Assembly (NCBI RefSeq): GCF_000518265.1
Contig: NZ_JADG01000019.1
Location: 62,001-126,000 of the forward strand
Length of the DNA stretch: 64,000 bases
Source of the DNA: Actinomadura oligospora ATCC 43269
GTDB taxonomy: Bacteria > Actinomycetota > Actinomycetes > Streptosporangiales > Streptosporangiaceae
Direction: 5' to 3'
In this document: piece after piece, positions 7,110-32,284 of the stretch
Position numbering within the stretch: the first letter of the stretch is position 1
Layout of the letters: each line of letters begins with the position of its first letter
The notes under the pieces: generated by a model
Seen by the model: the letters and a program-made list of their open reading frames with translations, nothing else
Databases searched by the model: none
What the model was told of the DNA's origin: nothing
Program-made: the position numbers and the translations under genes

Positions 7110-7481
7110 CGGCTCAAGAAGCCCGGCTAAAGGCGGCGGAAGGGGTTCGGGGGCGTCCCGGAAAAGGGAACGACCCCCGGACCTTCCCCGCCGGATGGCG
7201 GGAGACGCACAGGACTGGTGCGTCGGTCCGGGGGCCGGGTAACTGCCTGGTATTCGCCGATCACCGTCCGGTGATCGGCCACCGCCGTGCGATGACGACG
7301 GCGCCGCGGCAGGACGGCGACTAGCGGACAGTCACCTCGCGAGTCCCAGAATGAATCATTTCTTGGACCACCTCCTTTCGCGCGTGCCGCCAAGCTATGC
7401 GAGCATCCGGGCGGGAGGCAAACCCTTTTTCGGACGATTTCGCTGCGGCGGTTCGCCGCCCCCGGGACGTAGGATGCGGGC
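7110..7481. other. Intergenic region with hairpins, probable short leftward transcript
   Basis: Between nitrobindin and fur no long gene fits. The interval holds a perfect 10-bp hairpin at 7256-7265/7270-7279 with a 4-nt loop. It also holds a GC-rich inverted pair around 7145-7185 and a short leftward ORF at 7321-7359 with an exceptional ribosome binding site. Read leftward, the order is Shine-Dalgarno, 12-codon ORF, strong hairpin, then a second dyad before the nitrobindin end. That is the layout of a small regulatory RNA or an attenuated leader. The fur -10-like TAGGAT (7470-7475) lies at the right edge. Confidence 0.5.
7321..7359 (-). CDS. 12-codon ORF with perfect Shine-Dalgarno (possible leader peptide)
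   Basis: Reading leftward from ATG at 7359 the frame encodes MIHSGTREVTVR and stops at TAG (7321-7323). Nine nucleotides before the ATG lies AAAGGAGGTGG (7368-7378), fully complementary to the 16S 3' end, which is rare in this window where many genes lack any Shine-Dalgarno. The downstream side is a 10-bp hairpin at 7256-7279. The combination suggests a translated leader or a dual-function RNA divergent from fur. No homologous protein is recognised. It is too short to be certain of translation. Confidence 0.45.
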   Translation of the reverse strand: MIHSGTREVTVR

Positions 7482-30542: not shown

Positions 30543-31031
30543 CTAGAGGGCGCGCTCGCGGGTGCGGCGGGCCGAGGTGGACGCGACGGGTTCGGCGAGC
30601 AGCCCGGTGGCCAGGCGGTTCATCGCGCGGAGGAAGACCTCGCGCTCGTCCTCGGGTAGCGCGTTCAGCACCTCGGCGTGGACGGAGTCCACGATCTCCT
30701 GGCTCCGCGCGGCGACCTCGGCGCCCTTGTCGGTGACCGCGATGACGCGGGCCCGCCGGTCCCTGGAGGACGGGCGGCGCTCGGCCAGGCCGCCGTGCTC
30801 CAGCGCGTCCACGGTGCTGACCATCGTGGTCTTGTCCATGTCGCCGATCTCGGCCAGCTGGTTCTGGGTGCGCTCCTCCTCCTGGGCGTGGACGAGGACG
30901 CAGTGCATGCGCGCGGTCAGGCCGATCTCGGCGAGCGCCGCCGCCATCCGCGTCCGCAGGACGTGCCCGGTGTGGTCGAGCAGGAACGAGACGTCGGGCG
31001 TGACGCCGGAGGTGGGTGCGAGAGAGGTCAT
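30543..31031 (-). CDS. MarR-family regulator
   Basis: A 162-residue winged-helix repressor with the MarR core QLAEIGDMDKTTMVSTVDAL (recognition helix) and the wing RRPSSRDRRARVIAVTDKG. TAGAAT lies 6 nt before the ATG, and a 15-bp dyad at 31051-31065 stands just upstream of that box, indicating autoregulation. The only divergent neighbour is the trpS leader. Control of trpS by this MarR is possible but not needed to explain the attenuator. Effector unknown. Confidence 0.9.
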   Translation of the reverse strand: MTSLAPTSGVTPDVSFLLDHTGHVLRTRMAAALAEIGLTARMHCVLVHAQEEERTQNQLAEIGDMDKTTMVSTVDALEHGGLAERRPSSRDRRARVIAVTDKGAEVAARSQEIVDSVHAEVLNALPEDEREVFLRAMNRLATGLLAEPVASTSARRTRERAL

Positions 31032-31050
31032 GCCCCCATTCTAGTTCCGT

Positions 31051-31065
31051 AGCGGATTATCCGCT
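31051..31065. promoter_or_regulatory. MarR operator
   Basis: AGCGGA-TTA-TCCGCT is a perfect 6-bp-arm palindrome 20-34 bp upstream of the marR ATG and about 45 bp upstream of the trp leader -10. It is the expected size for a MarR dimer site. Confidence 0.7.
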
Positions 31066-31120
31066 TTTGTGTTGATCACAGGTCTGGGCAGCGGCGCGCC
31101 CGGCCGGGTACGCTGAGGCC

Positions 31121-31168
31121 ATGCATCTCAGCGTCTGTCTTGGTTGGTGGCCGTCCTCGGACGGCTGA
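31121..31168 (+). CDS. Trp leader peptide (MHLSVCLGWWPSSDG)
   Basis: A 15-codon ORF with two consecutive Trp codons (TGG TGG at 31145-31150), upstream of tryptophanyl-tRNA synthetase. TACGCT at 31109-31114 lies 6 nt before the ATG and there is no ribosome binding site, so the leader mRNA is probably leaderless. The Trp codons sit directly against the 5' arm of the first hairpin. Ribosome stalling there under low Trp-tRNA would free the antiterminator strand. The peptide itself needs no function. Confidence 0.88.
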   Translation: MHLSVCLGWWPSSDG

Positions 31169-31258
31169 CCAGGCGTACGCGCAGGCCGTCCGAGTACCGG
31201 GCGGCCTTTCTCCTTTTCGAGGGGTCCGCCCTGAGAACCGCCCTCGAAGGAGAAGAGC
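31150..31258 (+). promoter_or_regulatory. Trp-type transcription attenuator upstream of trpS
   Basis: Four competing segments are visible. Hairpin 1:2 is 31150-31155 with 31160-31165. The antiterminator 2:3 is a perfect 10-bp pairing of 31156-31165 with 31185-31194. The terminator 3:4 pairs 31183-31192 with 31198-31207 (10 bp, one G-U), followed by a U-rich run to 31217. The 2:3 and 3:4 forms exclude each other. A further pairing, 31210-31213 and 31216-31223 with 31241-31252, covers the AAGGAG ribosome binding site of trpS. Classical attenuation of trp and trpS genes is known in actinobacteria; the ribosome-site hairpin is an added observation. Confidence 0.85.
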
Positions 31259-32284
31259 ATGACCCTCACCACCCCCGAACTCTCGGAACTCGTCGCCGGC
31301 GACGCCGCGCGGCACCGCGTCCTGACCGGTGACCGCCCGACCGGCCCCCTCCATCTCGGCCACTACTTCGGCACCCTGGAGAACCGCGTCACGCTGCAGC
31401 GCGCGGGCGTCGAGGTCTTCGTGATCATCCCCGACTACCAGGTGCTCACCGACCGGGACGTGGCCGACCGGCTGGAGGAGAACGTCCTCGGCCTGATCGC
31501 CGACTATCTGGCCGTCGGCATCGACCCGGCCACCGCGACGATCTTCACGCACTCGGCCGTCCCGGCGCTGAACCAGTTGTTCCTGCCGTTCCTGTCGCTG
31601 GTCTCGGTGCCGGAGCTGAGCCGGAACCCGACCGTCAAGGACGAGATCGAGCACTCCCGGCAGAGCGCGGTCAGCGGGCTGATGTTCACCTACCCCGTCC
31701 ACCAGGCCGCCGACATCCTGTTCTGCAAGGCCGACCTGGTGCCGGTGGGCCGCGACCAGGCCCCGCACCTGGAGGTCACCCGGACGGTCGCGCGCCGCTT
31801 CAACGAGCGGTACGGCCAGGTCTTCCCGGTGCCGGAGTGCCTCCTGTCCGACGTCCCGCTGCTGCTCGGCACCGACGGCCAGAAGATGAGCAAGTCGCGC
31901 GGCAACGCGATCGCGCTGTCCTCGACGGCGGACGAGGTCGCGCGCCTGGTCAAGCGGGCCAAGACCGACGCCGACCGGCACATCGCCTACGCGCCGGAGA
32001 CCCGTCCCGAGGTGTCGAACCTGGTGCGGCTCGCCGCGCTCGCCCAGGGGCGCGCGCCGGAGGAGGTCGCGGCGGAGATCGGCGACCGCGGCGCGGCCGA
32101 GCTCAAGCGGGTCGTCACCGAGTCGGTGAACGAGTTCCTGCGTCCGATCCGGGAGCGCCGGGCCGCGTTCGCCGCCGACCCCGGGCAGCTGCGGGCCATC
32201 CTCGCCGCGGGCAACGCGCGCGCGAACGAGATCGCAGGAACCACGCTGGCCGAGGTCCGGAAGGCCATGGCGATGACGTACTAG
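31259..32284 (+). CDS. trpS: Tryptophanyl-tRNA synthetase
   Basis: A 341-residue class I aminoacyl-tRNA synthetase that charges tRNA-Trp. The HIGH-type motif is HLGH near residue 33 (GPLHLGHYFGT) and the KMSKS loop KMSKSRGN is near 209. The C-terminal anticodon-binding helices end at residue 341. AAGGAG lies 7 nt before the ATG, inside a hairpin of the leader. Control by a Trp-Trp leader peptide suggests this copy responds to tryptophan supply. Some actinomycetes also have a second trpS; whether one exists here cannot be seen. Confidence 0.96.
   Translation: MTLTTPELSELVAGDAARHRVLTGDRPTGPLHLGHYFGTLENRVTLQRAGVEVFVIIPDYQVLTDRDVADRLEENVLGLIADYLAVGIDPATATIFTHSAVPALNQLFLPFLSLVSVPELSRNPTVKDEIEHSRQSAVSGLMFTYPVHQAADILFCKADLVPVGRDQAPHLEVTRTVARRFNERYGQVFPVPECLLSDVPLLLGTDGQKMSKSRGNAIALSSTADEVARLVKRAKTDADRHIAYAPETRPEVSNLVRLAALAQGRAPEEVAAEIGDRGAAELKRVVTESVNEFLRPIRERRAAFAADPGQLRAILAAGNARANEIAGTTLAEVRKAMAMTY

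Follow-up and report, generated by a model that had tools for sequence, protein, structure and literature searches.

An auxiliary trpRS gene, encoding a tryptophanyl-tRNA synthetase (TrpRS), was reportedly described by Vecchione and Sello in 2010 as being under ribosome-mediated transcriptional attenuation, to go by the reference entry. An attenuator before trpS was predicted in Streptomyces by Seliverstov et al. in 2005 (PMC1262725; this paper and the next three are cited from excerpts). The leader peptides before trpE and trpS in Streptomyces lividans are leaderless as assessed by RNA-seq (PMC8079986). In Bacillus subtilis, tlrB is attenuated both in transcription and in translation (PMC6851288), and a mycobacterial poly-Cys leaderless small open reading frame (sORF) is described as a case of translation attenuation (PMC13236596). 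Here, we analyse the leader of trpS in Actinomadura oligospora ATCC 43269, within a stretch of 64,000 nucleotides (nt) of contig NZ_JADG01000019.1 (hereafter the window, by whose positions all features are numbered; they lie on the + strand unless stated otherwise). Judging from its sequence, this leader is likely to control an auxiliary TrpRS gene by ribosome-mediated attenuation through two gates, termination and a mask over the Shine-Dalgarno (SD) sequence, that would be read by a single leader peptide. The computed basis consists of the sequences, a conserved layout, folding energies and the covariation, across the leader family, of the terminator helix (3:4), the SD helix and an additional helix named P0.

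A Trp-Trp leader peptide with a predicted leaderless start precedes trpS

The leader peptide MHLSVCLGWWPSSDG (15 amino acids, then a stop) is encoded by an open reading frame (ORF) at 31121-31168, with its ATG at 31121 and its stop codon at 31166-31168. The ATG lies 6 nt after a -10 box, TACGCT (31109-31114), which conforms to TAnnnT, and the putative sensor consists of tandem Trp codons (TGG TGG) at 31145-31150. A preliminary description of this DNA, made from the letters alone, had placed the ORF, the box and the Trp codons at the same positions.

We compared 216 trpS loci (L001 and L003-L217) from four overlapping source sets, in which certain species are present twice. The first comprises 80 named loci; the second, the hits in 56/65 genomes of the same genus; the third, 30 of the hits in 46/394 genomes of the class; and the fourth, nearly all hits in 55/295 genomes of a genus inferred to be Streptomyces, leaving out a second copy in genome G616 and a partial hit in G665. 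A Trp-Trp leader ORF, as in a tandem-codon attenuator, was found 5' of trpS in 160 of the 216 loci. Merging identical leaders reduced these to 153 distinct ones (118 to 111 in an earlier subset), and later statistics used 151, without L102, whose terminator was misplaced by the script, and L158, which offered no room. Groups were labelled from their leader peptides (StrepM, Streptomyces-type, Nocardia-like, Nonomuraea-type, and Actinomadura A/B). StrepM denotes the 32 distinct leaders with MTSVPC-like peptides, and the Streptomyces-type group also includes other genera.

The distance between the TAnnnT box and the leader start is strikingly uniform. When starts were picked blind to the box, a rule that left 3 of the 153 leaders without a usable start, the gap was 6 nt in 117/150 leaders and 7 nt in 24/150 (141/150 together), and each of the other gaps from 0 to 41 nt had a count of 0-8. 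A script preferring boxed starts found TAnnnT at 6-7 nt in 159/160 leaders. The sole exception, L213, comes from G616, a genome with two trpS copies ∼7.8 kb apart. With the spacing fixed in this way, the leaderless layout, as read from sequence, is conserved across genera, and a predicted transcription start at or beside the A of the leader ATG is strongly implied. TAnnnT is the -10 consensus derived from mapped starts in S. lividans, in which 17% of transcripts are leaderless (PMC8079986). The preliminary description had presented the leaderless start, together with the ribosome-site hairpin, as the added feature of this leader. The layout itself stands, but it is no novelty, since the S. lividans trpS leader was already known to be leaderless, as the excerpts of the same paper report.

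Counting against the generality of this arrangement, 56 of the 216 loci have no Trp-Trp leader by the script, the gene motif not having been located in seven of these 56 when they were rescanned for leaders. In 15 of the 56, TAnnnT is followed by a leader with a single Trp that ends in WRPS or WRPF. Three others (L151, L170, and L187) have different Trp-containing leaders, and L169 does have a Trp-Trp leader, outside the boundaries of the script. The one-Trp WRPS/WRPF leaders, which share the leaderless layout, are those of L004, L005, L009, L020, L098, L099, L103, L104, L112, L114, L118, L123, L128, L136, and L138.

The leader contains mutually exclusive antiterminator and terminator helices

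Four strands make up the attenuator. Strand 1 (GGCCGTCC, 31149-31156) forms a duplex of -14.5 kcal/mol with strand 2 (31156-31166), which runs as far as the first nucleotide of the leader's stop codon and has either strand 1 or strand 3 as its partner. Strand 3 (31183-31194) can in turn form the antiterminator with strand 2 or the terminator with strand 4 (31198-31207), the terminator 3' arm. The antiterminator (31156-31165/31185-31194) is a perfect helix of 10 bp with -19.8 kcal/mol, and the terminator (31183-31192/31198-31207) also has 10 bp, including one G-U, with -19.6 kcal/mol. Since 31185-31192 is common to both, the two helices exclude each other; their nearly equal energies are what a kinetic switch needs. 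Both the positions and the energies thus bear out the mutually exclusive hairpins of the preliminary description. By the geometry that we infer, stalling at the Trp codons (31145-31150) would place a ribosome over strand 1, and a ribosome at the stop codon (31166-31168) would cover strand 2. The leader as a whole (31121-31262) folds with z=-4.3, none of 200 shuffles being equally stable, and the leader, its hairpins and the SD mask all recur in relatives.

Covariation was assessed by a sister-pair swap test (73 pairs), which controls for descent and in which only pairs with an energy difference are informative. It replaced pair counts from alignments because MAFFT put the two SD arms of the window clade out of register. 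Covariation in related leaders, which the preliminary description had named as a check on its hairpins, was found for the terminator helix, whose native partners were better in 26/30 informative pairs (p=3e-5) and which served as the positive control, and for the SD helix (31/43, see below). The antiterminator, helix 2:3, is too invariant for covariation to be seen (5/6 informative pairs, p=0.11). This invariance tells against the two-gate attenuator, as do the scarcity of informative pairs for helix 1:2, which were too few for the swap test, and a poor U-tract: TTT is found no more than 10 nt from the end of strand 4 in 81/153 leaders.

The quality of the U-tract bears on a different reading, in which helix 3:4 is an ineffective terminator and control is exerted at the SD alone. 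In its favor, the tail of the window's terminator, TTTCTCCTTTTC, has its T run broken by C residues, and T runs near the end of strand 4 are as infrequent across the family as just described, being absent from all 11 Nocardia-like leaders (0/11). Yet the T run after 3:4 is mostly kept in StrepM (24/32) and in the Streptomyces-type group (27/41). The title of the 2010 report is also said to describe an auxiliary trpRS under transcriptional attenuation. We consider a purely translational switch in the window very unlikely.

The terminator tail pairs with the trpS Shine-Dalgarno sequence

In the two-gate attenuator that we favor, the second gate is formed by the pyrimidine tail of the terminator (31208-31223), which serves as the anti-SD strand. 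Its partner (31241-31254) holds the trpS SD, GAAGGAG (31246-31252). The hairpin folds as 31208-31214/31248-31254 plus 31217-31223/31241-31247, i.e. 14 bp with a 2-nt bulge and a duplex energy of -20.8 kcal/mol. This is slightly longer than the pairing of 31210-31223 with 31241-31252 first proposed, which is otherwise confirmed, as is the double role of the terminator tail. More broadly, the idea that one leader combines attenuation with translation masking is supported by the comparison for the attenuator, the leaderless start and the SD hairpin.

In the sister-pair swap test, the native anti-SD:SD combination was favored over the swapped one in 31/43 informative pairs (p=0.0027), including both pairs from the window clade, and with longer arms in 33/52 (sign p=0.035, Wilcoxon p=0.0009). 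Four control pairs of stretches gave 27/49, 25/40, 11/42, and 30/56, none with p<0.05. Permuting SD partners within groups led to the same conclusion for Actinomadura (n=41, z=-7.1), the Streptomyces-type group (n=24, z=-5.0) and the window clade (n=4, p=0.04). Occlusion of the SD exceeded that of dinucleotide-shuffled upstream sequence at p<=0.1 in 112/151 leaders; in the four members of the window clade the values were p=0.07, 0.17, 0.07, and 0.40, the window alone having p=0.07 against 30 such shuffles of its upstream stretch. The cost of opening the SD had a median of 7.7 kcal in the 151 leaders, compared with 4.1 in 42 SD-led background genes from the same loci (p=4e-7). On this covariation and occlusion, selection has very probably acted on the SD mask in the leader family. 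The window taken singly gives modest statistics, and the case rests on the family and not on the single sequence.

Three results pull the other way. Permutation of anti-SD:SD partners was not significant in StrepM (n=7), in the Nonomuraea-type group (n=9, p=0.054) or in the Nocardia-like group (n=10); in StrepM the anti-SD sits in strand 5 (see below) and not in the tail, and the permutation was therefore aimed at the wrong strand. The control that paired the tail with the gene start was mildly raised (25/40, p=0.08). Finally, opening the window's SD costs 5.6 kcal (60-nt context), a value that 26% of the 42 background genes equal or exceed. That the window's SD is not extreme would fit a transcription attenuator only, with SD pairing as a by-product of a pyrimidine tail meeting a purine SD and no regulatory role for it. 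Such an attenuator is complete alone and of a known kind (PMC1262725, in excerpt), and swapped tails pair well too, the permuted mean in Actinomadura being -16.1 kcal against -18.8 for native partners. We nevertheless find this unlikely: native partners prevailed in the swap test, where all four controls missed p=0.05, occlusion went beyond what composition gives in 112/151 leaders, and the SD hairpin is kept in the Nocardia-like group, which has no U-tract.

Nocardia-like leaders L155-L157 and L160-L166 (VKSLVLVWWLPS type) combine a strong SD hairpin with the lack of a T run after 3:4, which suggests, on sequence grounds, purely translational control in that group. In Nonomuraea-type leaders (L053, L055-L058, L063, and L064), an element like GGGACGGC follows the terminator, between the anti-SD and the SD; it complements strand 3, not strand 4.

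A predicted helix, P0, extends helix 1:2

In the minimum free energy (MFE) structure of the window's leader, helix 1:2 is extended by a helix, P0, between 31131-31145, within the leader ORF, and 31167-31180, the spacer between strands 2 and 3. Across groups, the swap test favored native P0 partners in 33/44 informative pairs (p=0.0006). Permutation was significant in Actinomadura B (p=0.0002) and in the Streptomyces-type group (p=0.0002) and not in StrepM, the other smaller groups or the window clade (p=0.67, with the clade's arm clipped to 10 nt). P0 probably strengthens the default fold, in which no ribosome is stalled. The Cys codon that is frequent ahead of the Trp codons would lie in P0.

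Strand 4 and a candidate strand 5 may relay the signal to the SD mask

The preliminary description gave no route by which the SD mask would be lifted. Re-pairing of strand 4 with a candidate strand 5 (31219-31231) offers one, which is good in StrepM and no more than plausible in the window. Strand 5 can form a 12-bp hairpin with strand 4 (31199-31210) at a stage when transcription has not yet reached the SD. In the window the 4:5 duplex has -17.9 kcal/mol and the hairpin consumes bases of the anti-SD strand. It is the nascent MFE structure in 4/4 members of the window clade, with pairing probabilities of 0.67-0.95. Binding of strand 4 in the nascent RNA of the window amounts to -13.2 kcal against -8.5 for shuffled strand 4. 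Among 200 shuffles, 3.5, 15.5, 5.0, and 1.0% were as good in the four members (the 3.5% being that of the window), i.e. 3/4 at <=5%; with 60 shuffles, 2/4 were at <=5%.

The clearest instance is StrepM. In 31 of its 32 leaders (all except L181) a GGGCCGTCC block lies 25-69 nt 3' of strand 4 and is the exact complement of GGACGGCCC, found in strand 4 of 32/32. The block continues into pyrimidines able to pair with the SD (TCCTC in 23 leaders, TCCCTC in six). Adding strand 4 brought the median cost of SD opening from 8.8 down to 4.1 kcal, whereas shuffled strand 4 gave 8.7; the drop occurred in 32/32 leaders and ranked in the best 10% of shuffles for 30 of them. In nascent RNA, <=5% of strand-4 shuffles bound as well in 31/32. 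With 4:5 forced, the total energy equalled or bettered that of a fold with the SD hairpin and an unpaired strand 4 in 31/32 StrepM leaders, compared with 1/4 in the window clade (the window), 5/41 in Actinomadura B and 8/41 in the Streptomyces-type group.

A universal 4:5 relay was rejected, the pairing being uneven among groups when scored at p<=0.05 against dinucleotide-shuffled downstream RNA: 4/4 in the window clade, 7/7 in StrepM, 18/50 in B/Kit, 4/24 in Strep, and 0/24 in others.

For the window, several observations speak against a relay. Strand 4 barely varies and 4:5 does not covary (8/18 informative sister pairs, p=0.76). A nascent strand-4 pairing probability >0.5 is common in all groups except 'other' (2/4) and is thus not specific alone, and no strand-4-specific nascent signal was found outside StrepM and the window clade. 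At equilibrium the full read-through RNA still masks the window's SD (MFE -30.5). Strand 4 lowers the opening cost of this SD from 9.1 to 5.6 kcal, yet 20% of shuffled strands 4 match this, and among the three other clade members the cost rises with strand 4 in L003 and L084 and changes little in L085. A reduction of >1 kcal at equilibrium was accordingly seen in 1/4 members of the window clade, the window itself, vs 32/32 StrepM leaders. For the window, the direct folding path has a barrier of 26.2 kcal, which is an upper bound.

Two of these observations, the masking of the window's SD at equilibrium with or without strand 4 and the restriction of special downstream affinity of strand 4 to StrepM and the window clade, are what would be expected if the SD hairpin were a fixed brake for low expression, without relief on Trp starvation. 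Only transcription would then be regulated, so that this reading overlaps with ours, one regulated gate being left. A fixed brake sits poorly with the effect of strand 4 in all 32 StrepM leaders, with a weaker effect of the same sign elsewhere (a modest one, SD opening with strand 4 lying below the shuffled value in 29/41 Actinomadura B leaders, p=2e-5, and 28/41 Streptomyces-type leaders, p=2e-4), and with 4:5 being the nascent MFE structure throughout the window clade. We hold it to be a real possibility, doubtful on balance.

Taken together, we regard the relay as well supported in StrepM, as moderately supported in the window's four-member clade, where it lacks covariation, and as weak or absent elsewhere. 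That strand 4 takes strand 5 from the SD in the window, one leader peptide thereby switching first the polymerase and then the ribosome, is a tentative proposal that falls a little short of probable. The relay, if real, would have two or more origins, one in the StrepM leaders of Streptomyces and one in the window's Actinomadura clade.

Proposed mechanism

In the two-gate model, transcription would begin at the leader ATG. With charged tRNA-Trp present, the ribosome would clear the Trp codons, P0 and helix 1:2 would form, and 3:4 would terminate transcription. In whatever RNA reads through under these conditions, the terminator tail would fold onto the trpS SD, resulting in poor translation. 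When Trp is short or TrpRS is inhibited, a ribosome would stall at TGG-TGG, strand 2 would take strand 3, and RNA polymerase would continue. Strand 4 would then be free, and in the window clade it may fold with strand 5 before the SD is made; as 4:5 uses part of the anti-SD strand, the mask might be delayed or prevented. Provided that both gates function, leakiness of the terminator would be no weakness: read-through RNA would stay silent in Trp-replete cells, and a spare synthetase that is costly or needed conditionally would be held very low. The 153 distinct natural leaders provide material for testing chained RNA switches in one leader.

The trpS gene and its surroundings

The gene downstream, trpS (31259-32284), encodes an auxiliary TrpRS (TIGR00233, 255 bits), whose nearest solved relatives are 1yi8 and 2a4m ('Tryptophanyl-tRNA synthetase II'). 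A second TrpRS in the same genome is 34% identical to this product; a divergent enzyme beside a standard one is the pattern of TrpRS II. No TGGTGG was found in the 200 nt 5' of the other TrpRS gene. Where the main TrpRS (G000:C1:91513-92541) has VDLHAITV, the auxiliary one has PDYQVLTD, so that, by our reading of the two sequences, the customary His appears to be replaced. We take a His at that position to be tied to indolmycin sensitivity. In S. coelicolor, induced expression of one of two TrpRS genes is reportedly linked to indolmycin resistance (from a 2002 title by Kitabatake), and the leader would thus bear on actinomycete tolerance of TrpRS inhibitors.

The genome carrying the window has 9.35 Mb, and its nearest named relative by trpS is Actinomadura logoneensis, whose TrpRS is 92% identical. 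Upstream of trpS, on the opposite strand, lies a MarR-type gene (30543-31031). Rfam leader families gave no match at the trpS leader, either in a scan of the window or in one of 31050-31300. The T-box covariance model likewise gave none, whether the window was scanned at the gathering threshold or 31050-31300 at E<=5. Elsewhere in the window, Rfam RF02471 (Actinobacteria sRNA Ms_IGR-5) has a strong match at 7165-7385 on the - strand (104.8 bits).

Comparison with known systems

The B. subtilis trp leader under TRAP resembles the present one in joining a terminator to a hairpin over an SD, that of trpE; its sensor is a Trp-bound protein and not a leader peptide. The mycobacterial poly-Cys attenuators of Canestrari et al. 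(2020) are said to share a leaderless sensing ORF with this leader, and to differ in that they respond to cysteine and have no 1-2-3-4 terminator. No description of an SD gate or a relay for trpS leaders was found in the literature searched, which excluded the full text of the 2010 paper.

The attenuators of Streptomyces trpS/trpRS are alike in their Trp leader peptide, their exclusive antiterminator and terminator, and their synthetase target, an auxiliary TrpRS. Unlike what we find here, the excerpts of PMC1262725 mention SD masking at the T-boxes of ileS and the LEU elements of leuA and do not give it for trpS. S. lividans trpL2, before trpS, shares the leaderless leader, the TAnnnT consensus and hairpins before the gene; it differs in its peptide, MMTRTCTQLWRAA, which has one Trp, and in that no uridine-enriched stretch was found, according to the same excerpts (PMC8079986). 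In B. subtilis tlrB (yxjB) a terminator and an SD-sequestering hairpin are likewise under one leader peptide, but tylosin takes the place of tRNA-Trp as the signal, both hairpins are blocked directly by the stalled ribosome, translation of the leader peptide starts from an SD of its own, and no overlapping antiterminator was identified (PMC6851288). The attenuator, leaderless leader peptides and the combination of a terminator with an SD hairpin, as in tlrB, are therefore already known. What is newer in the trpS leaders is an SD gate that covaries and is built from the tail of the terminator, the extra covarying helix P0, and the candidate 4:5 relay.
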